A stretch of 29,594 bases of DNA from a virus, in the IMG/VR virus record IMGVR_UViG_3300035184_001953, positions 1-29,594 of that record; one strand, 5' to 3'. The first letter of the stretch is position 1. Every line of letters starts with the position of its first letter. Positions 2,837 to 23,166 of this stretch are shown piece by piece. The notes beneath the pieces are model-generated. The model saw nothing but the letters and a program-made list of their open reading frames with translations, ran no database searches and was not told where the DNA came from. Position numbers and translations under genes: made by a program.

Positions 2837-2855
2837 ATTTACACTTTTTATTGAT

Positions 2856-2885: not shown

Positions 2886-2942
2886 AAGTCTTTTCTTGAT
2901 TATTTTTATATCCAAAGAAAAGTTCATTTATTTTTAAATTAA

Positions 2943-2957: not shown

Positions 2958-2966
2958 GGTTTATAA

Positions 2967-4012: not shown

Positions 4013-4192
4013 TTATCTTGTAACAGAATCTGAGTATTTTTTCTCGTTGAGTTTTCCGCCCCTAGCTTTAGCCAAGTTTTCTTCGTTTGATAAATCTTTA
4101 CCACCATCTAAGTCGATTGGTGTTTTATCATTTTTAGATTTGCCTACTTTAGCGAAATCCGATTTGCTGTATAATTCTTCTATTGATGCCAT
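4013..4192 (-). CDS. 59-aa hypothetical late protein
   Basis: This frame starts at ATG 4192 with a strong ribosome site (AAAGGAG, 9-nt spacer) and a late-class promoter 24 bp upstream. It reads MASIEELYSKSDFAKVGKSK and then a charged, Gly/Asp/Lys-rich tail ending SVTR. The product is hydrophilic, has no cysteine and no membrane segment, and looks partly disordered. I do not recognise it. It is the first gene of the unit that also holds the sulfotransferase and the GIY-YIG nuclease. Its own promoter and good start signals make it likely to be real and well expressed late in infection; it could be a small virion or scaffold-like protein. Confidence 0.7.
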   Translation of the reverse strand: MASIEELYSKSDFAKVGKSKNDKTPIDLDGGKDLSNEENLAKARGGKLNEKKYSDSVTR

Positions 4193-4215: not shown

Positions 4216-4225
4216 TATAAATATA
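4216..4225 (-). promoter_or_regulatory. Late-class promoter element
   Basis: TATATTTATA on the minus strand, 24 bp before the ATG of the 59-aa gene. It is one of six copies, all found shortly upstream of late-unit first genes. Confidence 0.7.
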
Positions 4226-4227
4226 GA

Positions 4228-5361
4228 TTAAGTATCGAAACGAACAATAAAGTTCATGTCCATATCTGGTAAATTCTTAATTGGTGTTGGTAATTTTGCT
4301 ACTGCAACTACATCCCCATCATCATCATATAATGCAATAGTTGTAATATATGGTGCTAGATATGAACCTGTTGGGTCTGTTTGTCGGTATGTATCATAAT
4401 CATCCCAACTACCAGTCGAAGTTCCTACTGTACCATAGAACTCAGTTTTTCTATGAATATCAAGTACGTTTTTAATTTTTACTTTACGTGCTCTTGAATG
4501 AATACCTGTTCTAGTAAGCTCATGTTCTGTTGCTCCTTCAAATAATTCAACTTCTACTGCTGATGGGTTTTGTGAGTAATTAAACTCTCCTGCTTTAACA
4601 CTAACAAGTACTTCTGTTTCATGTATTGTTTTTGTACTTCGATAAGTCATCGTGTAATCATCAATAGGATTATCCCATAAAACAATAGTTCCATCTGCAT
4701 AAAATACATTACCATATCTAGCTTCATCAATTTCTAACCCATCGAAATTCATTTTAACTGCAGTTGTAAGTGTACTTCTTGTAAAATCAAGTGTTGCAAC
4801 AACTTGTTGGTCTGTATCACCATTAAATGTTAATGTAGATACTCCTGTATTTAAATCAAGAGATGCAATACTTCCACTAAATAGTTCATTATCTGCATCT
4901 TTTATTAAAATATCACCTGTATGGAAATCAATTGATTCCAATACATACAATGGTACTGATGATACAATATTTCCGTCACCATCATCTGCAAAATCTACAC
5001 TATTAGTAGAGTCTTTTAATATTACCGAACCTTCTTTAATTCCCTCACCATATTTTGATTGGTCTAATGAGAGAATATATGCGGCTGAACCAGTTTGTCT
5101 GTAATCGGTGATTCTACCAATATCAGTAACCCTTCCAAATAAATTAAATGGATTTGTATCAGGATGATAATATTTATTGGTAATTGATTTTATTAAAGGA
5201 TGTGTGAATATATTTCCTTGTTTATTAAAAGAACCAGTATCAAAAGAACCAGTTTCTAATGAACCCGAAATTACTTCGTAATCCGACTTGGTTACGGTAA
5301 ATTTCTTATAGACAGGAAAACTCTTTTTCCATACCGCTGATTTGGCTATATTCTTTATCAT
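4228..5361 (-). CDS. Tail-associated structural protein, paralogue of the 5464-6693 product
   Basis: 377 aa, rich in Ser, Thr, Asp and Gly with beta-strand patterns and no signal peptide. The C-terminal 130 residues share a scheme with the 409-aa neighbour: EFNYSQNPS, then PYITTIALYDDDGDVVAVAK, then a closing strand ending in VRFDT. The neighbour has REFNFSNNPT, FISTVGLYNDSNEILAVAK and VKLDF. I infer a shared virion-protein fold, seen in other marine myoviruses near baseplate genes. The exact T4 equivalent is unclear. A GAGGAG ribosome site lies 11 nt before the ATG and a late-class promoter lies 19 bp upstream. It forms its own transcription unit, separated from the preceding gene by a terminator. 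Confidence 0.7.
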   Translation of the reverse strand: MIKNIAKSAVWKKSFPVYKKFTVTKSDYEVISGSLETGSFDTGSFNKQGNIFTHPLIKSITNKYYHPDTNPFNLFGRVTDIGRITDYRQTGSAAYILSLDQSKYGEGIKEGSVILKDSTNSVDFADDGDGNIVSSVPLYVLESIDFHTGDILIKDADNELFSGSIASLDLNTGVSTLTFNGDTDQQVVATLDFTRSTLTTAVKMNFDGLEIDEARYGNVFYADGTIVLWDNPIDDYTMTYRSTKTIHETEVLVSVKAGEFNYSQNPSAVEVELFEGATEHELTRTGIHSRARKVKIKNVLDIHRKTEFYGTVGTSTGSWDDYDTYRQTDPTGSYLAPYITTIALYDDDGDVVAVAKLPTPIKNLPDMDMNFIVRFDT

Positions 5362-5379
5362 AGTATTATTACTCCTCTA

Positions 5380-5389
5380 TATAAATATA
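5380..5389 (-). promoter_or_regulatory. Late-class promoter element
   Basis: TATATTTATA on the minus strand, 19 bp before the ATG at 5361 and 8 bp beyond the U-tract of the preceding terminator. Termination and re-initiation are packed into about 40 bp. Confidence 0.75.
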
Positions 5390-5396
5390 TGGAAAC

Positions 5397-5419
5397 AAAA
5401 AACCCCACTTTTGGTGGGG
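5397..5419 (-). terminator. Rho-independent terminator after the 220-aa/409-aa unit
   Basis: The minus-strand RNA has CCCCAC, a 5-nt CAAAA loop, GTGGGG and then six U. The stem is perfect. It closes the transcript of the genes at 7383-6721 and 6693-5464. Confidence 0.9.
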
Positions 5420-5432
5420 AGTATTTGTGAAA

Positions 5433-5451
5433 GTTATGTTTGAAACATAAC
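5433..5451. repeat. 19-bp perfect palindrome in the 3' untranslated region
   Basis: GTTATGTTT-G-AAACATAAC is perfectly self-complementary around one central base. It lies between the stop of the 409-aa gene (5464) and the terminator (5397-5419). As RNA it would form a 7-9 bp hairpin that might protect the transcript end; as DNA it could be a protein-binding site. Confidence 0.6.
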
Positions 5452-5463
5452 AATTCTGTCTAT

Positions 5464-6693
5464 TTAAAAGTCAAGTTTTACTTTGATTAATATTTCTTTA
5501 TCAAATGATTTAGGAACAGGTTGAGATGTTTTCGCTACTGCTAATATTTCATTTGAATCATTATACAATCCTACTGTTGAAATAAATGTTCTAGGGTCTG
5601 TTTCAAAACTAGATTCAGCAAATGAACCATCAGAACCAGTTACAAATGTTGGATTGTTTGAGAAGTTAAATTCTCTATTTGTTGCTCTTATAAAGTAATG
5701 TGATGTAGAAACATTTTCTGTTCTTCTTGCTTCAAAATCATTTCCACCTCTAATTGCTTCATGTAGTAAGAAATGATTCTTACCTTCATATGTTTGCAAT
5801 GATGTAATACTAGCTCCTTTATTAGAACCACTATCGATTGATGTTCCAATTATACTATGTACTGCTGATGGATTAAGTATTACTAATCCTTGGTCAGGAT
5901 AAAATAAACCTAAACCTTGACCAGTTGAAGCAGTAAGTGTATTTACAGTTGCTTCATTTTCTGTTCCTAAGTTAAGTGAACCACTACATACATTAAATAC
6001 TCTACCGGATTTTCCAACTGTATCTGAGAATTTCTTTCCACTATCATCAATAAATGTTGAGATACCATTAGAACCACTTAATTTCAATGACCAGTTTCCT
6101 GCATCCATTTTCTCTTTGTAACGAGCACGAGCTACATTGATTACATAGATATCATCTGAATCATGGATTCCTGCTGCTGATGAAGAAAAGAAAGTAAATT
6201 TAGTATCATCGTTATCTAATAAGATTGAACGATATTGTGCATAAGTTGCTTTAGTTGCTAAAGTTGATGTATCTGAGTTTGCTAATGATATAGAACCAGA
6301 ACCTAATCGTTCTCCATATGCAACTGCATATTGTACAGCTGCTGAAGTATCCGATGATGGGTTCTTGTCATATACATTTATATAGTAGTTTGAAGCCGCT
6401 TGTCCAACTTCAGTTGATGAAGTAAAGAAAGATGTTAAACTTCCTGTATCTCCACTCCAAAGTCCGGTAGTAACAACTTCTACTTTACCCGTAATTTGGT
6501 CAAATTCACCAAATCTTTTATAGATACCTTGTGCGATTGAACCACCGCTTGCTCCCAACTTATCGCCACCAGTTAAATACTGGTTAACAATAGATGCTAA
6601 TTGTTCAGAAGTAAGTGTACCTTGGTTATCCGATAGATATGTAGATAACTCAGTTGTTAAATTTACTCCAGCTTGTCCTGATATTTGTGCCAT
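5464..6693 (-). CDS. Tail-associated structural protein, 409 aa
   Basis: 409 aa, Ser/Thr/Gly-rich with no signal peptide or membrane segment. The middle has a conserved-looking stretch (FGEFDQITGKVEVVTTGLWS near 62-81, then YAVAYGERLGSGS near 125-137) and a YVINVARARYKEKMDAGNWS-type segment. The C-terminus repeats the EFN(Y/F)S-NP, TVGLYND, ILAVAK, LDF scheme of the 377-aa downstream product, so the two are paralogues. This pattern is recurrent in virion proteins of marine T4-like phages; its role (baseplate periphery or fibre attachment) is inferred from location. It follows the 220-aa gene by 27 bp, with AAAAGGAAAA as ribosome site and no promoter of its own, so the two are co-transcribed. 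Confidence 0.7.
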   Translation of the reverse strand: MAQISGQAGVNLTTELSTYLSDNQGTLTSEQLASIVNQYLTGGDKLGASGGSIAQGIYKRFGEFDQITGKVEVVTTGLWSGDTGSLTSFFTSSTEVGQAASNYYINVYDKNPSSDTSAAVQYAVAYGERLGSGSISLANSDTSTLATKATYAQYRSILLDNDDTKFTFFSSSAAGIHDSDDIYVINVARARYKEKMDAGNWSLKLSGSNGISTFIDDSGKKFSDTVGKSGRVFNVCSGSLNLGTENEATVNTLTASTGQGLGLFYPDQGLVILNPSAVHSIIGTSIDSGSNKGASITSLQTYEGKNHFLLHEAIRGGNDFEARRTENVSTSHYFIRATNREFNFSNNPTFVTGSDGSFAESSFETDPRTFISTVGLYNDSNEILAVAKTSQPVPKSFDKEILIKVKLDF

Positions 6694-6720
6694 TTTTTAT
6701 TTTCCTTTTTTATTTTTTAA

Positions 6721-7383
6721 CTACGAACTCCTAAAAGCTGTTCTCTCTCTGAGGTCAAGGGTTCTTGGAGTACGAACTGTAACAGTAATAGTTTGTGAAC
6801 CACCTGTTTCGTTTCCATATACGGTTAATGTTGTTTTAATACCTCTTCTTAAACTTGGGTTTGGTATAAATTGGAATGTTAATCCAGTTTCTATTGCTGC
6901 AGTTGCAGTTATCTCATCTCCTAAGAACGATGGTGTTGTTGCTGCTCCTGCCGCTAAACCACTACCAACAATTGAACCTGCATTTTTATCTGCTAGGATT
7001 ATTGTATATCCACTTTGTGTATTACCACTTGGTGAAGTAGTTGGAGAAAGTGTTACTTGACCTGAATCAGCAGAAACTATAATTGAAGGGATACCAAATT
7101 CTACTTTTGGAATTTTTGTAGTACCTTTTGGTAAGGTAACTAACTTATGCCTTAATACTTGTGTTTCGTCTGGTGATGCTTCAGTAATCGGTATTGCTTT
7201 AATTGCTGAATCGTAATATGCACTTCCTTTAGGATGTGCTGGTTCATAAAGGGTGTAATCTATTTCATCATCACCCAATGCAAACTTGGTGATATTTAAA
7301 CCATCCCCAGCTGCTAATTTTTCTCTACCCTTCTTAGTTAGAATAGCATCGACTGTGATTTCTGTATTATTTAAATAAGCCAT
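6721..7383 (-). CDS. Tail/fibre-associated structural protein, 220 aa
   Basis: 220 aa. The N-terminus (AILTKKGREKLAAGDGLNIT at 13-32, then KFALGDDEIDYTLYEP) is a signature I associate with a virion protein that recurs near tail genes of marine myoviruses. The rest has Thr/Ser-rich beta strands (for example SQTITVTVRTP near the C-terminus) and resembles an Ig-like sandwich. No enzymatic motif is visible. It is the first gene of a two-gene late unit: promoter at 7416-7425, AAGGA ribosome site, ATG at 7383. A structural role is inferred from composition and context; the precise position in the virion is unknown. Confidence 0.65.
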   Translation of the reverse strand: MAYLNNTEITVDAILTKKGREKLAAGDGLNITKFALGDDEIDYTLYEPAHPKGSAYYDSAIKAIPITEASPDETQVLRHKLVTLPKGTTKIPKVEFGIPSIIVSADSGQVTLSPTTSPSGNTQSGYTIILADKNAGSIVGSGLAAGAATTPSFLGDEITATAAIETGLTFQFIPNPSLRRGIKTTLTVYGNETGGSQTITVTVRTPRTLDLRERTAFRSS

Positions 7384-7415
7384 AATTTAATATTCCTTGT
7401 TATTGTTGTTCAATA

Positions 7416-7425
7416 TATAAATATA
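7416..7425 (-). promoter_or_regulatory. Late-class promoter element
   Basis: TATATTTATA on the minus strand, 33 bp before the ATG of the 220-aa gene. It is the longest spacing of the six copies. Confidence 0.7.
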
Positions 7426-7454
7426 ACTATTTTAAAAATTAGATAATATTTCTA

Positions 7455-10400
7455 TTAATCTACTTCTAAAATTGGTTCTCCACTTCCTCTACCACTATCA
7501 GATACTTTTAAAGTATTTGGATTAGTAGTAAATGTAACAATAGGTGAACCACCATCTAAGGTAGTTGCTGAAGTTTGTTTTGAACCATTAAAGAATGAAT
7601 TTTCCATTCCACTAGTTAAATCTCCTACGTTTCTGTAATGTGTTGGGAAATATCCATTTAATGGAGTAACACCAACTATATCCCCACTCACAGTTGGGTC
7701 TACTGATTCATTTCCATCTGAACCGGTAAATGGTAAAATATTTACAACTTGTTTAAATTTAGTTGTAGTTATAAATTGTGTACCTTGTGATGAATCTTGA
7801 GTTATGTTCTCAGGAATATCAACTGTATATGATTTTTTAAGTAAAAATACTTTTACTCTTTCTTTTCTAAGTGTGTTAGTAGAATCTATTTTAGTTCTAA
7901 TTGCATGAGAACCACTTCCAAATAATCCAAATCCTGCAACTGTAAGAGAATCTTGACCTGTTCCTATCTGTGTAAACATATCTGTTTCAAATTCTCCACT
8001 AAGTGATTCTCCTAACTCTCTATTATTAATTGTTAAATTTAATCCTTTAGATTCACCAGATAACGTTACGGTATCTTGTGTTGTTATGTTACTTTCATAT
8101 CCACCATTATCCGCAACTAATGTTTTAGATGTATCTAATAATATTGTACCATCAAAATCTTTAGATTCTCCACTAAGTATTGTAGAATCTTTGGCGTTTA
8201 CAGTTGTTAAATAATTCTTAGATTCACCAGTTGGAGTTACATCATTTATATTAATAGAAGTTTTGTAATCTTTTTTAAATGCAGTTGATGGTTTCCATTC
8301 TGTTTTACTTCTTTCAAGAATATGAGGTTCAATTAATAAACCTTGACTTACTTGAGCTCTAACAGGTATTAAAGATAAGATAATATTAAACAACGATTGG
8401 TCAATATATCTAACTAATTGTATGTATTCATAAATATTTAAAGTGTACCTATCAAAGTAGTAACCTCTTAATTGATTAAGTCTACTATATGTTGGTTTAT
8501 AGTCATCTGATGGGTCTCCAATATAATCATCTATATTAAACTCACCAAGTGAACGGATTATATCCATGTTTATCTCTTTTGTTGGAGAAAAGAATAATCC
8601 TAATCTATTTGAATCTACTGGTGAAGTGTCGAATGATTTTTTAGTAGCTCTACTTCTATAATTTAAATCAGATATTAATGTTTGAGTTTCAAACCTAACT
8701 TTATTTCCAAGAGTATTACCAGTTGATGGTACAATCGCAGTTACTTCTCTATCATACGATTTATATTGGAATGGATATGTTGCAACATCTGTAAAATTAG
8801 AAGCAATTGATTCTGTAACATATGTTTGTATTATAGATACATTTTTAATTGAAGTACTTGAAAATCTGTTTTTAGGATATTCATAATCATTTCTAAATAA
8901 TAAATCGGTTGATGAAGCAGATATATGATTTCCATCAACTGCATCTGGTAATAATGTGTGGTTATCAATTCTTGATTGAGATAGTGGAGTTCTCCATAAT
9001 CTATATTCATCTACCGAAGCAGTTAAATTATTACCACCAAGTGTTAATACACTTCCACTTTTCCATGAGTTAGTACCTGTACGAACTGATAAACTTGAAC
9101 TAAGTTTAGTTCTAATTCTTCCTTGGAATCCTTCTTGTGCATATACTTCAAATTTATCAAATGAACCAGATATTGTTTTCTGTACTACGATTTGTGTATA
9201 TTCATCGTTAAACAAAGAACCCGTTTCAGTTGAAGAGGAAAGTATAGTATTACTTCCAGTAACTCTAAACTCCACCTTAGCAAGTGAACCAGTATTTGCA
9301 ACAAGATGTAATGACCAACCATCTGTATTAATAATATCTTGGTCTATTCTTTCTTCAGTATTTACTCGTATCTCAACTGCATTAGGATAATCATCACTAA
9401 ATGTTGATGTATGTTTTTTCCAAGGTAGTGTAATCGCTGCTGAACCTTTAAATACTATTGAAGATGTTCTATCATCATATGTAAATTTCTGAGGAGTATC
9501 TCCATCAGGGTCACTAGGTCCTCCGAACTCCATTATAGTTAGTAAAGATGCAGGAACACCATAACAACTCAATGCTGCAGATATTGCTCTTTTTGTACCT
9601 TTATGTTTATACAGATATGGTAGATTATTTAATAATCTTCTCCATATTTGACTTTGTCTATCCTTACCACTCATGGAGGTAGTTACATTACCATCCTTAT
9701 CTTTACCAAAAGCATATTCCCAAAGAGCTTGACCAGATACACCCATATCTGCGTTCCAACCAAGTGATTCTAACATATGATATAACATAGTATCATCTAT
9801 ACCATATTCATGTGTATTTTCTACTCTATTACTTTTGGATATTGCTTTAATATGTGTGTAAATAACATCAAAATGCTGCCCAATCATATCAGAGAACAAA
9901 ATAAAATCAGAATTGTTTTCGTTATCTTTAATATGTTTTGGTAAATTAAATGATAATCGAGATGTATTCTCATTATCAAATGTTTGAGCTGAATCTAATA
10001 TTCCAGAATACCAACTTATAGTTGATGAATCATCTGAAGAGGAAATGGTATTTAAACCAGCTCCAGGATAAGTTAATGAACCAGATTCACTATATAGATA
10101 TTTTTCAAATGAATCAAATCCTCTTTTTACTTCTCCTATTTTAAATTGTATGCTTTTAGCTTCATGTCTTGTTGCTATTGATGATGTTAAAGAGTTTACA
10201 ATATTATACTTAGATTCATAGGTTTCTAACAATTTTACTTTGAAGTAAAAATTTTGAACTCTTTCATCTGCAGAAGAATATTTAATAAACTCTTTCCAAT
10301 TATAATCTTCTTCACCAGTTTGTTCTAATAATAAACCAGTACCAACTTCAGTTATTACGGAAGATTGACTTACAAATTCTATATTTAAATTATCTAATGA

Positions 10401-13124
10401 AAAATCACTAGATGATACAAATTGATTTACCACATCAGTAGATGAAGTAGAACCACTTGATATTAAATCATCAAGAATTTGATATCCAATCGTATCAGTA
10501 ACCTCTAATTCAAAATTAGGAGTTAATGGTGTACAATTATTAACAATATCATCTGTAATTGTTATTCTATCAATTAAAGGAATTGATTGTATCTTTGATA
10601 TCCAAACCTTATCATTAGCATTAGTACTTCTAGGTAATGGCTCATATAGTTTTAAGACTATTGACTTATCAGCCTCACCAAATATTTCTTTTTTATTGGT
10701 ATTTGGATTTATTCTAAATTCTGAGAAAGTTGTTTCATCAATTCCCCATGTACCTATAAGTTTATTATCACCATCTCCAAGGTGCAAGTAATGTGTTAAG
10801 AATGGTGATGTAAATTCCTCAAGTCCTTTATTATCAAATGCATTAACAAACGCATTTCTTAAATCACCAACAACTCTACCTCTACGAAGTGTTAAATCTC
10901 CCTTATCAAAGGTAATATTTATTGATTCAACTTTACCTAGTGTTTTAGAATCTCCTTCTAAGTTATGTGGAACTAATAATAATTTAAATTGTAATAAATC
11001 TCTTCTATTTCTTATACTTCTAAATCTACTACCTTTTTTAAGGATATCTCTCATGTTAAATTGAGCAACACCTTGTGGTTCAAATTGACCTAAAAATGCT
11101 TCTTTTCTTGGAGTATCGAGATATATACGAACAAAGTTTGTATTAATAGATTGCCATGATACATTAAAATCAATATCGTATCCTTTAAAATCAGGTCCTT
11201 TAATAACTTGAGGATAATTGATATGAGTAATATCAGGTCCCGGTAGGTACGATTTGTTTTCTGCAGTAATTATTACTTTTTCAATATCCCCACTTCCTCC
11301 TCGTTGGGATGCTGGTTGAACATATAATGTATAAGTTCCTGCTCCATTAGGAAAATCAGCATTTGATAGGGTTATAGTACCTCTGGTTGGGATTTGTTTT
11401 TTTACCTTTCCAAGAGTATATATTACACTATCAGCATCAGCTGTTTCATAACTAATTCTAACCGCACTTCTATCGGCTAGATTTAATTTAATACTACTTC
11501 TATTTAACCTAAGTGCTGGCCTAGTAGGTACACTTACAATAGGGTTTTTAAATACTTGAATTTGTATATCATTTTGTCCACCTTCAAGTTGAATAGTATG
11601 TTCTAATGCTTTTATTATTTTAGTCTTTTTTCTATTAGATGAGTATTGATATTCTCCTCTATGTGAAAAGTCTGTTATTCCATTTGCATAAAATGAAATA
11701 GTTGGTATTGGGTCTCCTGTTTGTCTTTCAACAGTAAATTGTACGATATCATCATCATCCAACACAGCCCCAACTTGTCCATAATTAGTTTTCCAAAGAA
11801 TGGTATCATCTGTTGGCACATCTCCTATTATACTTACTGAAAAAGTTTCTTCAATAATAGGTGGGTCTATAATCTCAACAGATTCTTTTCTTAAACTAAA
11901 ACCTACTCTTAATGAATGAGATTTAGCTCTTAAAGTTCCATCTAATGTTTTTGCAGCTTTATTTGTAGCACTTGGTTGTTGTACCCATTTACCATCAATC
12001 TTTCTTTCTAATTCAATTTCATAGTAATTGAATGGAACTGAACCTACCGATACTTTTGGTGGTATTATATTTTTTTGTGGTTTTGGTTTGTTAAACCCAA
12101 GTTCAATTGGCGCAATTGGTCTATATTTAGGTCTTACATTTAAAAATTCATTTCTAGGTTTTGGAGCTCTTGAATATGGATTACCTCTAGTAACTCCATC
12201 CAAAACAATACCCATTCCATTATCACTTCTTCCCGCTCTTGTTTCAAAGGAATTGTTTCCTCTGAAATTGATACCACTTCCACCAAATTGTTCAGATGGT
12301 GGTTGTATGTAATCATCCATGTAATCTCTAAACTGACCACTACCATCATTTGTGGCAGTGATTGTAGGAGCGTTATCTCTTACAGTACCTCTACCTCTAG
12401 TTGGATTTGGGTTAGTACGAATTGGTCCTGTGGCAAAGTCTGGTGGTAAATCAGGTCGTATAAAATCTCGAACTGGTTTTATATCTTTATATAAGGTTTT
12501 TTGTTTAGCAGATACTCTCCACTCATCCCTTGATGTAAATCCTGATTTTTCTATTGATATAGTTTTTCTACTCAGTAATTCTTTTTCTGTGAATTTTAAA
12601 ACTAGAGAATGAAAATCTCCGCTACCATTTGTTGTTCCTACTGATTTACCATCAACATTAACAGTTGAAGGTCCTCTATCAGTAGCTACTGTTACACTAA
12701 CTGGAGCATTGTAATCCTTAACAGCAGGTTTAATCTCCGGCTTTGGATACTTACAATTTCCATTATCATATGTTGCTCTTCTATCAAAGTTTGTTGCCTT
12801 ATTATCCATACAACCACCTTTTACAAATACAACTGGTCGTGGTTTGATAGGTATTATTGGCTCAGGTGGTAACTCTGGTTTTGGTGGCGGTGGTGGAGTT
12901 ATTATTGGCTTTGTAAATCTAGGTCTAGATATCTCTGGTATTGGATTTTTAATAACAACAGGTGGGTTTCTTCTTGGAGTTCCACCTCTCCCTCCTCCTC
13001 CGGAGTTACCCACAGGACGAAATACATCTGGTTCATATCCGAAAGGATTTTCGCCATTAGTTCTTCCAAAGTTATCCTCATAACTTCTAAAGTCATCGTA
13101 ATTAAATTGTCTTCTATTTCTCAT
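7455..13124 (-). CDS. Giant modular tail/baseplate protein (PEGA-like, Cys-repeat, LamG-like domains)
   Basis: 1889 aa, the largest gene here. Order of parts: Gly/Arg-rich N-terminus; Pro-rich hinge (about 53-100); one Cys motif GCMDNKATNF...GNCKY (C105 and C124); a PEGA-like surface domain (about 141-205); several beta-sandwich-like segments (about 360-900); a segment with KHKGTKRAISAALSCYGVP (about 1168-1186) like those in phage baseplate proteins; a concanavalin/LamG-like jelly roll (about 1215-1385) ending VDEYRLWRTPLS; and Thr/Ser-rich tandem pieces with SGESK (about 1621-1712). I infer a baseplate-periphery or fibre protein that reaches the host surface, with glycan binding by the LamG-like part. 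It has its own late-class promoter (13147) and an AGGTGG ribosome site. No chaperone or protease domain is visible. The virion role is well supported by context, the receptor role is inference. Confidence 0.8.
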   Translation of the reverse strand: MRNRRQFNYDDFRSYEDNFGRTNGENPFGYEPDVFRPVGNSGGGGRGGTPRRNPPVVIKNPIPEISRPRFTKPIITPPPPPKPELPPEPIIPIKPRPVVFVKGGCMDNKATNFDRRATYDNGNCKYPKPEIKPAVKDYNAPVSVTVATDRGPSTVNVDGKSVGTTNGSGDFHSLVLKFTEKELLSRKTISIEKSGFTSRDEWRVSAKQKTLYKDIKPVRDFIRPDLPPDFATGPIRTNPNPTRGRGTVRDNAPTITATNDGSGQFRDYMDDYIQPPSEQFGGSGINFRGNNSFETRAGRSDNGMGIVLDGVTRGNPYSRAPKPRNEFLNVRPKYRPIAPIELGFNKPKPQKNIIPPKVSVGSVPFNYYEIELERKIDGKWVQQPSATNKAAKTLDGTLRAKSHSLRVGFSLRKESVEIIDPPIIEETFSVSIIGDVPTDDTILWKTNYGQVGAVLDDDDIVQFTVERQTGDPIPTISFYANGITDFSHRGEYQYSSNRKKTKIIKALEHTIQLEGGQNDIQIQVFKNPIVSVPTRPALRLNRSSIKLNLADRSAVRISYETADADSVIYTLGKVKKQIPTRGTITLSNADFPNGAGTYTLYVQPASQRGGSGDIEKVIITAENKSYLPGPDITHINYPQVIKGPDFKGYDIDFNVSWQSINTNFVRIYLDTPRKEAFLGQFEPQGVAQFNMRDILKKGSRFRSIRNRRDLLQFKLLLVPHNLEGDSKTLGKVESINITFDKGDLTLRRGRVVGDLRNAFVNAFDNKGLEEFTSPFLTHYLHLGDGDNKLIGTWGIDETTFSEFRINPNTNKKEIFGEADKSIVLKLYEPLPRSTNANDKVWISKIQSIPLIDRITITDDIVNNCTPLTPNFELEVTDTIGYQILDDLISSGSTSSTDVVNQFVSSSDFSLDNLNIEFVSQSSVITEVGTGLLLEQTGEEDYNWKEFIKYSSADERVQNFYFKVKLLETYESKYNIVNSLTSSIATRHEAKSIQFKIGEVKRGFDSFEKYLYSESGSLTYPGAGLNTISSSDDSSTISWYSGILDSAQTFDNENTSRLSFNLPKHIKDNENNSDFILFSDMIGQHFDVIYTHIKAISKSNRVENTHEYGIDDTMLYHMLESLGWNADMGVSGQALWEYAFGKDKDGNVTTSMSGKDRQSQIWRRLLNNLPYLYKHKGTKRAISAALSCYGVPASLLTIMEFGGPSDPDGDTPQKFTYDDRTSSIVFKGSAAITLPWKKHTSTFSDDYPNAVEIRVNTEERIDQDIINTDGWSLHLVANTGSLAKVEFRVTGSNTILSSSTETGSLFNDEYTQIVVQKTISGSFDKFEVYAQEGFQGRIRTKLSSSLSVRTGTNSWKSGSVLTLGGNNLTASVDEYRLWRTPLSQSRIDNHTLLPDAVDGNHISASSTDLLFRNDYEYPKNRFSSTSIKNVSIIQTYVTESIASNFTDVATYPFQYKSYDREVTAIVPSTGNTLGNKVRFETQTLISDLNYRSRATKKSFDTSPVDSNRLGLFFSPTKEINMDIIRSLGEFNIDDYIGDPSDDYKPTYSRLNQLRGYYFDRYTLNIYEYIQLVRYIDQSLFNIILSLIPVRAQVSQGLLIEPHILERSKTEWKPSTAFKKDYKTSININDVTPTGESKNYLTTVNAKDSTILSGESKDFDGTILLDTSKTLVADNGGYESNITTQDTVTLSGESKGLNLTINNRELGESLSGEFETDMFTQIGTGQDSLTVAGFGLFGSGSHAIRTKIDSTNTLRKERVKVFLLKKSYTVDIPENITQDSSQGTQFITTTKFKQVVNILPFTGSDGNESVDPTVSGDIVGVTPLNGYFPTHYRNVGDLTSGMENSFFNGSKQTSATTLDGGSPIVTFTTNPNTLKVSDSGRGSGEPILEVD

Positions 13125-13146
13125 TAATATCCACCTATATTCATAC

Positions 13147-13156
13147 TATAAATATG
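13147..13156 (-). promoter_or_regulatory. Late-class promoter element
   Basis: CATATTTATA on the minus strand, 23 bp before the ATG of the giant tail gene; it differs from the consensus only in the first base. Confidence 0.65.
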
Positions 13157-13174
13157 TTTTTAAAAAATATACTA

Positions 13175-15436: not shown

Positions 15437-15442
15437 AATATA

Positions 15443-16744
15443 TTAGGTTGACCTTCTCCTTCTAGCTTGCCAGTAATGTGTTTTCATTACGAACTCTTCT
15501 TGTGTAGTTGCATTTTTAAATTTTATATTCGTTTCCCATGTTCCCCTACCAGCACTACCTCGTGAGAAACTTATTGCCTTTTTACCAGGAGTTGAACCAC
15601 CATCTGGACTTTTTGGTATAGTTACTGAAGAAGGTACACCATTTAACCATTTGCCTTTTTTCTTAACCTCTTCAGTTACATTTAATGTTACTGATTCTTC
15701 TCCCATATTAAACCACTCAAACGCCATTCCACTAAGAACACCTCTGTTACCCTTTTTTCTATCATCATAGTAAACTGGAAAATCAGGTTTTTTGTTTTTA
15801 TTCGAAGCCTTTGCTGCCCATGCTACTGTTCCTTTTACTTGGAACTGTGGTCTTTGGTCAACTAATGATAATAAACTTGTTTGTTTAGCTGCCTCAACTT
15901 CGTTTTCTTTTGCAGCAACTACTTGGTCTGCAACTTGTTGTTGTACAACTGCGGCTTGTTGTAATGATTTTACAATATCTTGTTGTGAACTCAATTGTTG
16001 TACTAACGTTTCTTTCTGTGCTTGGAATCCAGTAACTTGTGCTGATAATGATGCTCGTTCAATACCTTCTTTAGTACCTTTTATTAATGCAGTTTGGAAA
16101 TCTTTTAGTAAATCAGTATATCTATCAGTAGCTTTTTCGGTTTCTATAATTTGTGCATCAAGTTGAGCTCGTAAGTCATTAGCTTCTGCTTGTAATCCAG
16201 CTATTTGTGATTCAAGTGAAGCTATACTAGATAATGCATTATCTCTTTCCGTTGTTATTACTTTAATCTGAGTTTGAGCTTGTTTGTAAAGGTTCTCAAG
16301 TTTAACATATCTTGGTTTAGGAATAAAATCACCTCGTTTTGGCTTTACGGGTTTAATTAATTCATCAACTTTTACGTCAAGAGCTCTTTTAAGTTGGTTC
16401 TCATCATAATTTGGTTTTTCAATAAAACCTGATGTTTCTCCTCCAAATGATTTTTGAGCTTCTAAGTCTGCAAGACTTTTTAATGGAGGCAGGGTATCTA
16501 CAAAATCTGATTTAAATCGTTTTAACTCAGGAGGAATGCCTGGATGTTTAATTGGTTGTTGACCATATGGTATAAAAGGAGATGGTTGTGGAGCGAATCT
16601 CCCATTATTATCTTTAGAGTATCCCGTTGGAATAGCCTTACCATCTTTTTTACGCACTCGCAACTCACCTCGTTTATCACGAGGGATAGCTTTAGAACCC
16701 TTTTTAACAAGCTCATCTATTCTGAATCTGTCTTTTAAACCCAT
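15443..16744 (-). CDS. Coiled-coil tail-associated protein, 433 aa
   Basis: 433 aa. The first 140 residues are basic and Pro-rich. Residues about 145-295 are a long coiled coil rich in Gln, Ala, Glu and Leu (for example ASLESQIAGLQAEANDLRAQ), which suggests a trimeric or dimeric rod. The last 130 residues form a probable beta-sandwich (FQVKGTVAWAAK ... ETNIKFKNATT ... HYWQARRRR). No catalytic motif is visible. It lies between the DNRLRE-like gene and the 753-aa gene with 1-6 bp gaps, so it is co-transcribed with baseplate genes. A fibre or tail-connector role is inferred. The ribosome site GAGAAG overlaps the end of the upstream gene. Confidence 0.6.
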   Translation of the reverse strand: MGLKDRFRIDELVKKGSKAIPRDKRGELRVRKKDGKAIPTGYSKDNNGRFAPQPSPFIPYGQQPIKHPGIPPELKRFKSDFVDTLPPLKSLADLEAQKSFGGETSGFIEKPNYDENQLKRALDVKVDELIKPVKPKRGDFIPKPRYVKLENLYKQAQTQIKVITTERDNALSSIASLESQIAGLQAEANDLRAQLDAQIIETEKATDRYTDLLKDFQTALIKGTKEGIERASLSAQVTGFQAQKETLVQQLSSQQDIVKSLQQAAVVQQQVADQVVAAKENEVEAAKQTSLLSLVDQRPQFQVKGTVAWAAKASNKNKKPDFPVYYDDRKKGNRGVLSGMAFEWFNMGEESVTLNVTEEVKKKGKWLNGVPSSVTIPKSPDGGSTPGKKAISFSRGSAGRGTWETNIKFKNATTQEEFVMKTHYWQARRRRST

Positions 16745-16745
16745 G

Positions 16746-17813
16746 TTACTTCTCTACTGTAAATGTTAACTCTTTATCACTAAAATATTCTACTACACCA
16801 CTTCGTACTGTTTTGATTTCAATAAAGTAATCTCTATTGTATTCGAAGTTACTTAAATCTAATTTAAAATAGTTACCAGTAGTATCACAACTAACTTTAG
16901 TATAATTATCATTAAATGGTATAATTACTTCACCAGTTACTATATCCTTGATTTGATAATATGTTGTTGATGGTAAAAACTTCACATCAGTATATGCATA
17001 GGTGTTTGTATAAGATTTAAGAGGATATTTTTCTCTACCAAAAACTCTAATCATTGGCTTACTTCCTCGTTTGTATCTTACTTTTAATTTTTTAAATGTT
17101 ATATGAATATCTTCTGCAGTTAGAGATGTTAACGAACCCGTAGAAAATAATGAATCATCCCAACCAATTCTTAACTTAGGTTGATATATAGTAGCAGTTT
17201 CTTTACTAAAGAATTTTAATTCTCCATAATCGATAGTGTCCGATTCAACTGAATCTGAATGTTTTATTATAAATCCTTCATTTGGTAATGTACCACCAAC
17301 CCAACTATTCATTGAATCTAATACATTCATTTCAATATCACCAGTTTGGTATGAAAATGCTTGTGAACCAACTGAACCTGTGTACCAGGTTCCACCCTTT
17401 CCATTAAACGAACCACTTGTACCATTTAAATAAGAACCATCCCCTAACCAAGTGCTAGATACATTTCCTCTATTTTCCCAACTAACTCCATCAGTTGAAA
17501 TATTATCAAAACGAGTTCCGATTCCCATATCCCATGATTGTGAAATTGGATATGCATAAATTGTATAATCAATTGGAATTTCATTTGCATCTGATTCTTT
17601 TAATAATAAATGAGCAGAACTCATTGTAATATCTCCACTAGCAATTGATTGTGATAATGGAGTAGTATCAAACTTTAATAATGTTCTTGCATTATCTTTA
17701 AGATTTCCATAGAAGGTTTTAGACACTTCAAGTATCTCATCCAATCCAGTGTTTTGATTTGGTTGTTGTAAGTAAATTGTTGAATCTTTAGATGATGTTA
17801 CGAAATGATACAT
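16746..17813 (-). CDS. DNRLRE-like domain protein in the tail operon
   Basis: 355 aa. Residues about 1-225 match the DNRLRE/CBM96-type beta-sandwich pattern: SSKDSTIYLQ at the start, ARTLLKFDTTPLSQ, SSAHLLLKESDA, YAYPISQSWDMG, VSWENRG, GTWYTG, then IEMNVLDSMNSWV and the closing YGELKFFSKETATIYQPKLR. This domain usually sits on secreted or surface-exposed bacterial proteins and some members bind carbohydrate. The C-terminal 110 residues form another beta-rich piece. In this operon, just after gp6, it most likely decorates the baseplate or starts a fibre. The ATG at 17813 overlaps the last base of the gp6 frame, with GGGAG upstream, so the two are coupled. Confidence 0.7.
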   Translation of the reverse strand: MYHFVTSSKDSTIYLQQPNQNTGLDEILEVSKTFYGNLKDNARTLLKFDTTPLSQSIASGDITMSSAHLLLKESDANEIPIDYTIYAYPISQSWDMGIGTRFDNISTDGVSWENRGNVSSTWLGDGSYLNGTSGSFNGKGGTWYTGSVGSQAFSYQTGDIEMNVLDSMNSWVGGTLPNEGFIIKHSDSVESDTIDYGELKFFSKETATIYQPKLRIGWDDSLFSTGSLTSLTAEDIHITFKKLKVRYKRGSKPMIRVFGREKYPLKSYTNTYAYTDVKFLPSTTYYQIKDIVTGEVIIPFNDNYTKVSCDTTGNYFKLDLSNFEYNRDYFIEIKTVRSGVVEYFSDKELTFTVEK

Positions 17814-19825
17814 TATAATACTCTCCCTTTTAAATCTTTATTTGGAAACTTAACTTCAAATACACATGGGTCTACTGATGGGTAAACCATTTTGCCTTTA
17901 GTTGCTTCTGATATGTTATACGAATGTGTTGAGTAACTTCCTAAACACTTATTAACAACTTCACACTTAGGTACAGATTGTACACCTTCTATACCTGCTA
18001 ATAAAATCTCAATAGCTGAGATGTTTATTGGCATATTAAATGTCCAATTATCTATTTTAAAATAGTCCTTTAGTTCTGTAATACATTTTGCGAGAACTTC
18101 TCTCTTATTGTATCCACTATACGCTCTAACTTCAAAATCAAGTCCAATATTTATAACATATCCATCGATAATGTTAATTCCATCAGTTAACATTCTATAT
18201 TCTCCGATATATGTTTTTAAGTTTTCCTTAACTGCTCTGTTTAAAACTGATAAATTATTATTTGCATTATACCCAAGGATATATAAATTAATTGCAAATG
18301 GATTGTTCTTTTCACCAGGACTACCCATTTTACCTTTTAATAATTTCTGAACTTCTTCTCTTGTTTCTTGGTCTGATAAATTTTTATCCTTAACCGTATT
18401 GACTAAACCAACCAACTCTTCAATCGAATCGGTATCTTTTAATAATGAACCAGGAGAATTGTTATCTAATTGTCCATCTGGTGAACAATATGCTTTAGCA
18501 ATACCACCATACTTAGCAGGTAATGCCAATGCTCTAACTTGATAATCTTTTCTAGTTACCGCTCTACCTTGTGAACCAAAGTTAGCTAGTGCATTTTCTC
18601 TAATTTCATCAATAGTTTCTTCACCTCTACCACCAGTTGCAGGTGTTTGATTATCAACTGCTACTGAAGATTTCATTTTATTATACAAAACTGTTTCGTT
18701 TTGTGCAAATGTTTTTACATCATCATCAAATTCGATTCTCTTAATATTTGTTAACTCACCTTTAGCAACATTTGAAGATACTCCCCCACCCACTAAATAA
18801 GAAATTGTTAGTTTTGTGTTTGATGGAGATTGTCCATATGATGATGTTCTTAGAAAGTTAGCGGGGTCAAACGCTGAACTCATTTTATCTATGGAAGAAT
18901 TTAATCCCAATCCTACATTTTTTGTATTTGGTATCAACACTTCATCATTTGATGAATTACCACCACCAAAAACTATTGTAGTTGTATTATCTTGATTAAT
19001 CTTAGTTACAAATCTTTTTGAAGTTTTTAATACCTTTAATATATTTGAAACAGAATCTTTAAATTGAGCCAAATCTTTATCAGTTTGTTCATCAACAGGA
19101 TAATCAACATATACCATCTCTTGTGCTAAATAAGGAACTTCATACCACTTACCACCATTAGAATCTCTTATATCAAATATATCTATTACATTCTTATCTG
19201 CAATATTTATTTTTGAAAATTGTTTAGGTGAAGTAAATGTTTGAGTTACTGTCTTTAATACAGCTGATATTGCGTTAACATACTTTTTAATAAGATACTG
19301 AGTAGCTTCTCCGTTTGCATCTGTATAAACAGTAATTTCTCTATCAGTTGAATCATTAAAATCAACAAGTTCTGTTGTTCTAAACTGAACATTCGATTTA
19401 GCAGCTTCAACCACCATACCTTCTTTGATTCTTAAAAAATAATCAGAGTCTGGTCTGTTATCTTCACCAGCACCAATTGCAGGTGCTAATTGATATACTG
19501 CGATTTGAACAATTGCAGGTGAAGTAACTTTCGGTTTATATCCTAAGTAATTAGCTAAAGCAATTACATTTTGTTTATCTTCCGCATATAACATCAATGA
19601 TTCTTTCAATGAATCATCTGTATAGTACGATAATATATCTCCAAGATATGATGCCATCTCGATGAACATCATTCCAGGTGAAGCTTCGTTAAAATCAGAA
19701 TATGTCTTAGGAAAGTATGTTTTAGAATACTCAATAAGATTCTTTCTGAAAGATGCGAAATCTTTACTAAGATACTTAATATCTCTTCCGTTATTACTTT
19801 TAAAATTAGCTGAGTTTAATGCCAT
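17813..19825 (-). CDS. 6: Baseplate wedge protein, gp6-like
   Basis: 670 aa, close to T4 gp6 (660). The N-terminal signature of the family is visible: DIKYLSKDFASFRKNLIEY, then FNEASPGMMFIEMASYLGDI, then a helix with KESLMLYAEDKQNVIALANYLGYKP. The middle has VQFRT, INIADKNVIDIFDI and the GRGEETIDEIRENALANFGS segment followed by RAVTRKDYQVRALALP, which match the gp6/gpJ baseplate core. gp6 joins with gp7, gp8, gp10, gp25 and gp53 to form the wedges of the contractile-tail baseplate. It follows the gp25 gene by four bases, the same order as in T4-like phages. AGGA precedes the ATG. Confidence 0.93.
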   Translation of the reverse strand: MALNSANFKSNNGRDIKYLSKDFASFRKNLIEYSKTYFPKTYSDFNEASPGMMFIEMASYLGDILSYYTDDSLKESLMLYAEDKQNVIALANYLGYKPKVTSPAIVQIAVYQLAPAIGAGEDNRPDSDYFLRIKEGMVVEAAKSNVQFRTTELVDFNDSTDREITVYTDANGEATQYLIKKYVNAISAVLKTVTQTFTSPKQFSKINIADKNVIDIFDIRDSNGGKWYEVPYLAQEMVYVDYPVDEQTDKDLAQFKDSVSNILKVLKTSKRFVTKINQDNTTTIVFGGGNSSNDEVLIPNTKNVGLGLNSSIDKMSSAFDPANFLRTSSYGQSPSNTKLTISYLVGGGVSSNVAKGELTNIKRIEFDDDVKTFAQNETVLYNKMKSSVAVDNQTPATGGRGEETIDEIRENALANFGSQGRAVTRKDYQVRALALPAKYGGIAKAYCSPDGQLDNNSPGSLLKDTDSIEELVGLVNTVKDKNLSDQETREEVQKLLKGKMGSPGEKNNPFAINLYILGYNANNNLSVLNRAVKENLKTYIGEYRMLTDGINIIDGYVINIGLDFEVRAYSGYNKREVLAKCITELKDYFKIDNWTFNMPINISAIEILLAGIEGVQSVPKCEVVNKCLGSYSTHSYNISEATKGKMVYPSVDPCVFEVKFPNKDLKGRVL

Positions 19826-19829
19826 AATA

Positions 19830-20264
19830 TTATTCCTGTACTACCAATGTTATTTCTTGTAAACTAATATCATTTCCAACGGTAAATTGTAAACTTAAAT
19901 TTACTTGATTTTTATCTCTTAATTCATTTTCCATATTAACATCAATTGCTTCTACTCTAATGTATGGTAACCAATACTCCACACTTTTTAAAATAGTCTT
20001 TTGGATGTTTTTTTTAAATTCACTATCATCCATTTGTTCGAATAATAATGACCTAAGACCTGAACCAAATTCTGGTTGCATTATTCGTTCACCCTTTGCA
20101 GTTAATAACAAATTTTCAAGATTAGCTTTTGCTTGGTCAAGTGATGTAAATGCCTGTGAGAAAAATCCTGTATTACCATTTTGTATAGGTAATGTGATTC
20201 CATACGCATATGAATCGAATTCTTCAGAATCTTTTAGTGTTTTTCTACCAAGTATAAATGCCAT
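19830..20264 (-). CDS. 25: Baseplate wedge protein, gp25-like
   Basis: 144 aa, near the 132 aa of T4 gp25. The family core is visible as ANLENLLLTAKGERIMQPEF (50-69), followed by GSGLRSLLFEQ, and the end strands (VNLSLQFTV ... ITLVVQE). gp25 is the gpW/lysozyme-like wedge component that contacts gp6 and the sheath and starts sheath polymerisation. Its role here is secure from the sequence and from its position directly before gp6. GGGAG lies 7 nt before the ATG at 20264. It is co-transcribed with the 197-aa gene upstream. Confidence 0.92.
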   Translation of the reverse strand: MAFILGRKTLKDSEEFDSYAYGITLPIQNGNTGFFSQAFTSLDQAKANLENLLLTAKGERIMQPEFGSGLRSLLFEQMDDSEFKKNIQKTILKSVEYWLPYIRVEAIDVNMENELRDKNQVNLSLQFTVGNDISLQEITLVVQE

Positions 20265-20275
20265 GACTCACTCCC

Positions 20276-20869
20276 TTATCTCGTTTTAAACTTTTTTACA
20301 AGTGATGAATTATCTCTATTTAAAATTTTATCCAATCCAGCTAATCCTGTTTTAACTCCAAGACCTTGTTTACTTGTTCCTTGTGATACATCACCATATC
20401 CCATTTTAGCTGCCATCTGAGTTCTCATTCCACCAATTCCAGCTCCTGCTCCTTGAGAATCAAACGTTAAGGTTTTATCCATACTCTCTTGAATCGGTTG
20501 TTCTTGTGGAGGTAAACTATCTAATACAGATGCTCCACCTCCTGGTGTTGCTCCACTTGCTCTTTGAGCCTTTGTAAATGGTTTTGTCATATTTAAAACC
20601 TCATTCAAAGTTTTGTTTTTAGTGAATTGTTTTTTTGGTGTTGCTCGTTCCTGTTCTAACGCAAGTTCTACTTGTTGGAAAGGGTCTATCTCTTCACTAA
20701 CGACTTGCGTTGAGGGAACGGGTACACCCCCCTTCACCTCTGCTAATCTTCTACTTACTTCCTCATCCAATATTCTTGGAAAAGTTTTCGATAAAAAACG
20801 TTCTTGTTGTTTGGCAGTTTCTACCTCAACAAGAGTCTTTATTACTTTTATTAATTGTTTGTTGTTCAT
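20276..20869 (-). CDS. Hypothetical protein at head of the gp25-gp6 operon, 197 aa
   Basis: 197 aa, not recognised. The N-terminal 65 residues are helical and charged (IKVIKTLVEVETAKQQERFL, then FPRILDEEVSRRLAEVKGG). The rest is low-complexity and Gly/Ala/Gln-rich (GAGAGIGGMRTQMAAKMGYG near 141-160) with a basic end (SSLVKKFKTR). It looks partly disordered, as adaptor or scaffold-like virion proteins often are. It is the first gene of the longest late unit, 22 bp after a late-class promoter (20891), and is directly followed by gp25. There is no ribosome site of note. A baseplate-assembly role is a guess from position only. Confidence 0.6.
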   Translation of the reverse strand: MNNKQLIKVIKTLVEVETAKQQERFLSKTFPRILDEEVSRRLAEVKGGVPVPSTQVVSEEIDPFQQVELALEQERATPKKQFTKNKTLNEVLNMTKPFTKAQRASGATPGGGASVLDSLPPQEQPIQESMDKTLTFDSQGAGAGIGGMRTQMAAKMGYGDVSQGTSKQGLGVKTGLAGLDKILNRDNSSLVKKFKTR

Positions 20870-20890
20870 TTTTGATTATGTTTATCTTAA

Positions 20891-20900
20891 TATAAATATA
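20891..20900 (-). promoter_or_regulatory. Late-class promoter element
   Basis: TATATTTATA on the minus strand, 22 bp before the ATG at 20869. It would drive the 197-aa gene, gp25, gp6, the DNRLRE-like gene, the coiled-coil gene and the 753-aa gene. Confidence 0.75.
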
Positions 20901-20921
20901 TTACTATTGATTTTATGGTTA

Positions 20922-21485
20922 TTAACCTGGAACTAGAAAGCCAGGATGTATTAAAACACCGGGTGCTACTGGTGGAGGAGCTCCAGGATATATAGATATG
21001 GTTGAATACATATGTACTGTTGTTGGTAGATGTCCTTGCATTGCAGCGATTAACAAACCTAAAAATGCTTCATTAGAATTTTGATTAGATAAAGGTCCTA
21101 CTGGAGGCCAAGTACCTGGATTCATACAAACAGCTGCGGTAGTTGTTATATTTGAAATTGCACCACTTGCAGGAATAACAGGTGGAATACCCACAGTAAG
21201 TGTAAGTCCTGTCCAATATGCAACAACTCCTTTTCCAATATCATCTGCAAAAGTATGCATTCCATCGGTTTTAGATAGTGCAACCTGACATGCAATTGCA
21301 ACCAGTGCTTCCATTCCCGCAGTATTACCAGCTGATATTGGAATTGGATTTACATCCTGTACACCTGCTTTAACACACATATCATATTCTGTTGTTATCT
21401 TTTTTGCAAAATCAGTAAATGCCCCAATCCCACCTTGGTTGGTCATATATGAATTCATGGCGGATTTAAATTTACTAAATGACAT
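20922..21485 (-). CDS. Hypothetical baseplate-region protein, 187 aa
   Basis: 187 aa, not recognised as a named family. The first 110 residues are mostly helical (FKSAMNSYMTNQGGIGAFTD ... TAGMEALVAIACQVALSKTD), then a Pro/Gly-rich stretch with VGIPPVIPASGAISN, CMNPGTWPPVGP and a final PGVLIHPGFLVPG. Compact size, three Cys and a Pro/Gly-rich second half are the visible traits. It follows the gp5-like hub gene by four bases and is the last gene before the next late promoter. It could be a hub-associated or tip protein, but it lacks the repeated G-x-P motifs of PAAR tips. CGGA precedes the ATG weakly. Confidence 0.6.
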   Translation of the reverse strand: MSFSKFKSAMNSYMTNQGGIGAFTDFAKKITTEYDMCVKAGVQDVNPIPISAGNTAGMEALVAIACQVALSKTDGMHTFADDIGKGVVAYWTGLTLTVGIPPVIPASGAISNITTTAAVCMNPGTWPPVGPLSNQNSNEAFLGLLIAAMQGHLPTTVHMYSTISIYPGAPPPVAPGVLIHPGFLVPG

Positions 21486-21489
21486 ATTG

Positions 21490-22725
21490 TTATTCCGTAT
21501 AGTTTAACGTAGATAAAAATGTATTCAATTTAGATTTAATCTGGTTAAAGGTTGGTTTGTTTGTTGGTCCTGGTGCAGTTGGTCCACATGGAGTTTGAAA
21601 TATTTGTACATTAATAGCATCAATTAACTCCTCTAGTAACCCAAGTAGAGTTTCACCCCTTACCAATGGTTCGGTTGTTTCTTCAGTATTTAAATATATT
21701 TCTCCACTACCCCCCAAAAAATACATATTATTATCGTTAGTAGTTGTTCTATATTCTCCGTTTAAATCAATCTCTGCTCCAGCCAATCCATTATCGATAC
21801 TTAACTTACCATCTGATATAAATGAATAATCTCCTTTAGAGAAAAACATCATTTCGGAATCTTTAGAAGATATAATAATTCTACCACTATTTAAAAGAAT
21901 TTGGTCTGTACCTTTTAATTCATCTGGTGGAACATGATAAATGGGTTCTGTTTCAAGTGGAATATCTGCAGTACCAGGTGTGAACGCTAATTCATAATCT
22001 CCACTCGTTATTGCAATAGTAGAACCATCCTCAACAATATCTTCTTCTGTTATTTCAAATTCTTTTAATTCATCGATTGATAAATCGTTTTGTCTGTTTC
22101 TAAGTATTATAGTAGGAGCGAATACATTCTCTTCATTATTATATCCACTAAAACGAAGTGATTGACCAAATCTTGATTGGATTATCTTATCTCCTTCAAA
22201 ATATTTAAGAGGATTAATTTGGGTTGATTCAAAATATTCACCAAGTTTATTACTTCTATCACCATCACCACCTGAGTTAGGTGTTCCTGTTTCTGAGGTT
22301 TCTGAATACCCACTTGAATTAGTATCTGTATTTTCTACTGGCAATCCTCTAAGTTGAGCATCTTCAACTGCATTACCTGCATTGATATCTATATTATGAA
22401 TTCTTTTATAATGTGAATTACCACCCACTTTAATTAATTCAACTACCTCACCAAGTAATGGAAGGCCTTCATCAATATTAAATGGTGGATAATCATTTAA
22501 ATCATCATAATCATATGAAGTATCTCCCCTTTCAACTATTTTGGCAAATCCAAGTGTTGAATCCAAATCAGATACATCAGAAGATATATCTGATGGAATG
22601 GTTATCGATTCAAATTCAGTATCATCAATATGTACAAATACTACTGTACCTGTTATTAACTTATTTGAATTATCTGCCTTATTGGTTAGGAATCCTGAAT
22701 TTGATTTTTGTATTCTTTGTGCCAT
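21490..22725 (-). CDS. Baseplate hub/spike protein, gp5-like without lysozyme domain
   Basis: 411 aa. An N-terminal OB-fold-like part (VVFVHIDDTEFESITIP ... ERGDTSYDYDDLNDYPP ... LPLLGEVVELIKVGG) is followed by EGDKIIQSRFGQSLRFSGY near 180-198, the pattern seen in central-hub proteins of T4-like phages. After residue 265 the sequence turns to short strands (ILLNSGRIIISSKDSEMMFF, then SFISDGKLSID) that fit the start of a trimeric beta-helix spike. T4 gp5 carries a lysozyme domain between these parts; none is visible here, as in many marine relatives. The gene starts with TAATG overlap on the 136-aa gene and is in the first late unit. Confidence 0.8.
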   Translation of the reverse strand: MAQRIQKSNSGFLTNKADNSNKLITGTVVFVHIDDTEFESITIPSDISSDVSDLDSTLGFAKIVERGDTSYDYDDLNDYPPFNIDEGLPLLGEVVELIKVGGNSHYKRIHNIDINAGNAVEDAQLRGLPVENTDTNSSGYSETSETGTPNSGGDGDRSNKLGEYFESTQINPLKYFEGDKIIQSRFGQSLRFSGYNNEENVFAPTIILRNRQNDLSIDELKEFEITEEDIVEDGSTIAITSGDYELAFTPGTADIPLETEPIYHVPPDELKGTDQILLNSGRIIISSKDSEMMFFSKGDYSFISDGKLSIDNGLAGAEIDLNGEYRTTTNDNNMYFLGGSGEIYLNTEETTEPLVRGETLLGLLEELIDAINVQIFQTPCGPTAPGPTNKPTFNQIKSKLNTFLSTLNYTE

Positions 22726-23135
22726 TACTTACCAACCTTTTGTTTAAGTTCTTCTATTTCGTTAGTAAGTTCATCAACCTTTACATCTTGTTCATCTGCT
22801 ACTTGTAAAATAGTTTCATCTAATTGCTTTAGTAGTTGTTCTTTTTCAATATCGGAAAGAAAACCAGTATCTCCTTCTGATTTTTGTGCTGCACCTATAA
22901 TTCTTTGTGCAATTGCACTCATCTTAATTAATGATTCATCGTTTCTGATTGATGAATCAATTAAGTCTTTTAAGATTGGTCCTATTACCGCCATATCCCC
23001 AGCATGTCTGATTACATTTCTCATTTCTGAAATCAGTTCTGAGATTCTTTGTTTCTTGTTTTGTTGATTATCATAGATATCTTTAAACAACCCACTAAGG
23101 TTTTTGCCAGGAAATAATTCAAATTCTATACTCAT
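22725..23135 (-). CDS. Helical conserved phage protein, 136 aa
   Basis: 136 aa, not a family I can name. It is almost all alpha-helix and charged: NLSGLFKDIYDNQQNKKQRI near 12-31, RNVIRHAGDMAVIGPILKDL near 39-58, and a coiled-coil end (DVKVDELTNEIEELKQKVGK). No membrane segment, signal peptide or Cys is present. It is the first gene of the hub unit, 22 bp after a late-class promoter (23157), and overlaps the gp5-like gene (TAATG). A baseplate-assembly or tail-chaperone role fits the position but is not shown by sequence. Confidence 0.65.
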   Translation of the reverse strand: MSIEFELFPGKNLSGLFKDIYDNQQNKKQRISELISEMRNVIRHAGDMAVIGPILKDLIDSSIRNDESLIKMSAIAQRIIGAAQKSEGDTGFLSDIEKEQLLKQLDETILQVADEQDVKVDELTNEIEELKQKVGK

Positions 23136-23156
23136 GATTATACCATATTAGTTGTA

Positions 23157-23166
23157 TATAAATATA
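23157..23166 (-). promoter_or_regulatory. Late-class promoter element
   Basis: TATATTTATA on the minus strand, 22 bp before the ATG at 23135 and 8 bp downstream of the terminator U-tract at 23174-23201. Confidence 0.75.

Follow-up and report, generated by a model that had tools for sequence, protein, structure and literature searches.

The window, itself a virus record of 29,594 bases, has all of its likely genes on the minus strand. They include baseplate wedge genes, a primase, an SbcC-like nuclease, a Nol-type carbamoyltransferase, a deformylase and many genes of no assigned function. The closest named relatives at the protein level are Flavobacterium phage immuto, Mel-JY01 and an uncultured 484-kb phage. 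With the identities of these relatives, the presence of host-type promoters indicates that the host of the window phage is very probably a member of the Bacteroidota. The putative late boxes and two members of the late units are located as follows:

4216-4225, minus strand: late box TATATTTATA, 23 bases 5' of the ATG of ORF 4013-4192 (59 aa)
5380-5389, minus strand: late box TATATTTATA, 18 bases 5' of the ATG of 4228-5361 and 7 bases past a terminator T-tract
7416-7425, minus strand: late box TATATTTATA, 32 bases 5' of the ATG of 6721-7383
13147-13156, minus strand: late box CATATTTATA (one base off), 22 bases 5' of the ATG of 7455-13124 (1889 aa)
17813-19825, minus strand: baseplate wedge protein, late unit member (phrog_219, E 1.5e-21)
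19830-20264, minus strand: gp25-like baseplate wedge protein, late unit member (phrog_261, E 4.1e-18)
20891-20900, minus strand: late box TATATTTATA, 21 bases 5' of the ATG of 20276-20869
23157-23166, minus strand: late box TATATTTATA, 21 bases 5' of the ATG of 22725-23135 and 7 bases past a terminator T-tract

The first-pass annotation had described six copies of the box. Five are exact copies of TATATTTATA, all intergenic and confined to the minus strand (the plus strand has no copy), and the copy at 13147 is the one-base variant CATATTTATA. The chance expectation from shuffling is 0.81 ± 0.75 copies of TATATTTATA in the window, and none of 100 shuffles reaches five. One-mismatch forms are weakly enriched (27 vs 19 ± 4, with 5 of 100 shuffles reaching 27), so the window by itself is modest evidence for the motif; the relatives make the case very strong. 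The box-to-ATG gap across the six boxes is 18–32 bases, which keeps the short spacing proposed earlier and corrects its count of 19–33 bp by one. The copies at 5380 and 23157 do follow terminator tracts, at a distance of 7 bases from the last T and not 8. This gap of ~7 bases is too short for another promoter to lie in between, and the terminator-then-box layout at the 23157 site is kept in relatives. Each box had also been placed ahead of a gene that opens a late unit. This stands by orthology or position for the genes starting at 6721, 7455, 20276 and 22725, with 20276-20869 being the opening gene of a baseplate unit that runs from 20276 down to 13175. For 4013-4192 and 4228-5361 we can only infer late-unit status, because their orthologs are absent from the relative loci collected.

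The relative set consists of 160 loci with 2.1 Mb in total, 3.9% of it intergenic, with genes taken as simple ORF calls. These relatives share ancestry and are not independent samples; dereplicated sets agree. In the count by strand and distance to start codons that had been suggested as a check, TATATTTATA occurs 126 times in intergenic DNA in sense orientation, 5 times in intergenic antisense orientation and 15 times (13+2) in coding DNA. With only ~4% of the DNA being intergenic, an equal frequency of the motif in coding DNA is refuted. A start codon lies within 60 bp of 121 sense copies, nearly all of them at 15–30 bp. The box also holds fixed positions among orthologs. It is found 5' of 20276-20869 orthologs in 88 of 90 distinct upstreams, 5' of 22725-23135 orthologs in 75 of 76, and 5' of 7455-13124 orthologs in 3 of 3. 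Upstreams of 6721-7383 orthologs have TATTTATA in 15 of 22 cases and TATATTTATT in the remaining 7; exceptions at ortholog junctions have TATATTTATT or a near form. Not a single copy precedes the internal genes of box-led units in the distinct ortholog upstreams of relatives. Expectation maximization without a prior on 265 dereplicated upstreams returns ..tATATTTATA as the top motif, and in the window clade the position before the core is A in 98% and the one further upstream is T in 75% of these upstreams. A reversed-pattern control of the genome search overlaps the same sites (ATATTTATAT) and gives no information. The gene 24275-25975 (Nol-type carbamoyltransferase) has a TATTTATA box 5' in 27 of 53 relatives and none in the window, and it seems to switch promoter class between them.

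A separate non-coding element of ~90 bp lies at 23469-23570, 5' of 23238-23468, and is near-invariant in relatives (CATAGTTATT..GTGGATATCCCTTAGTTTTGCAAGATGGAAAAGTTATT[CT]ACATTTAATTAAAACAAAAGGAGAA), with no Rfam match. Its words GTGGATA and TTATTCACA look like paired DnaA-box-like words, and the element may serve as an origin or a leader.

The box-bearing genomes have a second promoter class, TTTGG-N-TTTCG-TAT[AC]TTTGTA, which is expected to be of the host sigma-A type. The -7 box of the flavobacterial primary sigma-A is TAnnTTTG (PMC9723704). Sites of this class in the window, together with the primase gene, are:

2840-3000, minus strand: two tandem early/host-like promoters TTGGATAT...TTCGTATATTTG before the primase gene, with boxes starting at 2975 and 2864, ~110 bp apart
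1892-2836, minus strand: DNA primase, early class (phrog_47, E 4.8e-52)
27640-27700, minus strand: early/host-like promoter TTAGGATATATG...TTCGTATATTAG before 27014-27625, in front of the cluster holding the sigma-like gene
29492-29527, minus strand: early/host-like promoter TTAGGATATATG...TTCGTATATTTG before 29029-29511

The primase has an early-type promoter in 5 relatives too. In these phages, the early promoters conform to the flavobacterial class, and the late box shares TAtaTTT with it; the late boxes differ in having A for G, no TTTGG element and no CG ahead, and do not match a host sigma-A (TAnnTTTG) promoter. A -33-like sequence is present at 2 of 70 late sites, compared with 21 of 24 and 12 of 12 early-type sites (random positions, 11%), which bears out the earlier distinction between late boxes and host-like TATATTTG promoters. 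Directly before the box, CG is found at none of the 70 late sites but at 19 of 24 and 12 of 12 early-type sites. The two classes also separate by gene content. In a relative of 287 kb, the genes behind late boxes are those for tail tube, baseplate hub, head-tail adaptor (connector) and tail fibre, together with two endonuclease/moron-family matches and several genes of no assigned function; early boxes stand ahead of the genes for DNA polymerase, exonuclease, RNA ligase and endonuclease and of one methyltransferase-like gene. Host-type promoters are seen as well in Microcystis phage Mel-JY01 (PP395634; L169:257, L169:38527), where genes follow the Bacteroidota-type promoters TTTTCGTATATTTGTA and AGTATATTTG. 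Its proteins group with those of Flavobacterium phages, and it may in fact infect a member of the Bacteroidota.

A candidate for reading the late boxes adjoins the late units:

25990-26742, minus strand: sigma-region-2/gp55-like protein of 250 aa, candidate late sigma factor (hhalign, Foldseek, Sigma70_r2)

Family members in the relatives have ~240–260 aa. Pfam and PHROG give nothing above cut-off for this protein itself and a PDB sequence search gives no identification, so profile comparison and fold search were needed. In a single chosen hhalign comparison, an alignment of seven T4-type gp55 proteins matches residues 7–114 with an E value of 8.8e-6 and a probability of 83. The AlphaFold2 model has a pLDDT of 75 and draws on 27 family members, all close relatives (without immuto, Mel-JY01 and LR756508). 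Foldseek matches of this model in the PDB and viral libraries are mostly sigma factors, with modest scores and PDB E values >0.1. Sigma70_r2 matches one homolog with an E value of 0.006, compared with 0.004 for T4 gp55. Each of these lines is weak alone, and the homology to sigma region 2 that they point to is remote; at this remote level, the gp55-like protein proposed by the first-pass annotation is present. The model has extra helices at 139-226, with no Pfam sigma-4 match. Many relatives end in a C-terminal tail [FY][IL]D-x-[DE][YF]L, which is missing in others and in immuto. The tail is hydrophobic and acidic and resembles the C-terminal clamp-binding tail of gp55 (PMC2988020), but no clamp was found: the gp45 profile (PF02916) does respond in the T4 control and finds nothing in the relatives. 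The gp33 profile (PF16805), run without a T4 control, finds nothing in the relatives either. None of 55 upstreams of sigma-like gene orthologs has the late box, and in the window an early-type promoter stands at the head of the cluster, in keeping with an early-to-late cascade. Judging from sequence and model, the 25990-26742 protein probably reads the late box. Rhodothermus phage RM378 was considered as support and rejected, with its annotated sigma factor falling outside the 25990-26742 family and its upstream motif being different (TTATTTAAA). In that genome (L179-L181) a TTATTTAAA(A) motif lies at most ~10 bases from many start codons on both strands, perhaps representing near-leaderless late promoters of another spelling.

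T4 is the textbook example of late transcription, which has been studied in phages that infect Proteobacteria or cyanobacteria. In T4, a late promoter consists of a plain TATA box roughly one helical turn 5' of the start, with no conserved -35 element; gp55 recognises it, and gp33 together with the gp45 clamp activates it (PMC2988020). The T4 box is TATAAATA (PMC2984593), and the cyanophage form is NATAAATA (PMC2988020, PMC2984593). The system described here is similar in its single TATA-like box of 8–10 bp at the -10 position, the absence of a -35/-33 element, the location before virion units and a very diverged phage sigma-region-2 protein. It differs in the box, which is TATATTTATA with the core TATTTATA and has TT for AA at T4-box positions 4-5. 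Neither TATAAATA nor NATAAATA is the box spelling here, and sense TATAAATA is rare before genes in the 160 loci. The sigma-like protein is ~65 residues longer with extra C-terminal helices, and homologues of gp33 and gp45 were not detected among the relatives. Because the box spelling differs and the co-factors were not found, we file the system as a variant of T4 late transcription rather than a plain member.

Flavobacterium phage vB_FspM_immuto (NC_055915) has homologous baseplate genes and a homologous sigma-like protein, gp118. The top motif of its virion half is [AC]TATTTATA, with late boxes at terminase, portal, sheath, tube and tape measure genes, while its early half has a different -7-like motif. 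Among the 63 early upstreams (1-78 kb; L165-L166), 27 have this early motif, TATaTTTAGgTAT, ~23 bases ahead of the start. The immuto late box differs from that of the window in having no leading TA: the position before the core is A in 53% and C in 45%, and the one before that is mixed. Given this A/C mix, the immuto late box does not include the TA that opens the host register, and it appears to fit T4 TATAAATA with AA changed to TT better than the host register. With both read in the same orientation, the core TATTTATA and TATAAATA share 6 of 8 positions. In the window clade, late and early boxes (TATATTTATA vs TATATTTGTA) differ at a single core position, just as the first-pass annotation described when it called the box host-like with the G replaced. 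Its further proposal of a host -7 origin agrees with this one-position difference but not with the absence of the leading TA in immuto or the 6/8 match to T4; derivation of the late box from the host -7 element is possible. The literature searched, on Flavobacterium, Rhodothermus and T4-like late promoters, holds nothing on the TATATTTATA box, no report of TATATTTATA or TATTTATA as a late promoter and no promoter study of immuto; most subscription papers and all preprints fell outside its scope.

Taken as a whole, the six copies are very likely core late promoters of a T4-related contractile Bacteroidota phage, with a gp55-like protein probably directing RNA polymerase. Each promoter would consist of a single box T-ATATTTATA in the -10/-7 position, without a -33 element, ~18–32 bases 5' of the gene that opens a virion unit. 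The host sigma-A holoenzyme would serve the host-like promoters (TTTGG...TTCGTATnTTTG) at the early stage of infection, among them the one ahead of the cluster encoding the diverged gp55-like protein with its sigma-2 domain. This protein would then direct the host RNA polymerase to the late boxes, and transcription would start there late in infection. A more specific version, which we hold as tentative and somewhat unlikely, is a one-protein T4 variant. In it, a longer gp55-like sigma would have a C-terminal domain replacing gp33 and would act without a T4-type sliding clamp, and the box centre would follow the host -7 (TTT in Bacteroidota, AAA in T4/E. coli).

The host primary sigma could instead read -33-less TAnnTTT(A) boxes itself, with a phage activator or DNA replication making the late switch and the gp55-like protein being otherwise employed. 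TATATTTA matches the TAnnTTT part of the flavobacterial TAnnTTTG box (PMC9723704), and the host sigma seems tolerant of A for G, as TATATTTAC is used in some host-like promoters, 12 of 12 having the -33 element. However, the late boxes go without this element (2/70 have one) and without the CG extension (0/70), immuto does not keep the leading TA on which the host register depends, and the sigma-like gene adjoins late units; we regard this explanation as improbable. Much less probable still, the motif could act at the RNA level in the 5' leader, in processing or translation, and not as a promoter. Boxes lie 7 bases past intrinsic terminators, where transcripts started upstream would end, and internal genes of box-led units never have one, although the short and fairly constant distance to the start codon would suit such a signal. 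Least likely of all is that the opposite strand serves as a T4 late box of the classical form TATAAATA and yields an antisense RNA. The core is arithmetically the reverse complement of the T4 late box, as had been pointed out, and the reverse complement TATAAATATA of the whole box holds an exact TATAAATA. The spacing to the sense start codon is nevertheless tight, so no antisense reading is required; boxes also lie just past sense terminators, and sense TATAAATA occurs only 14 times within 60 bp before genes in the 160 loci, compared with 213 times for TATTTATA.

For a large group of phages infecting a phylum with unusual promoters, the Bacteroidota, these sites and the gp55-like protein provide a clean late-promoter consensus, a matching early one and a candidate late sigma. 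Sequence alone may thereby suffice to tell early from late genes in many uncultured genomes. The system also offers a direct test of how the box preference of a phage sigma shifts along with its host.
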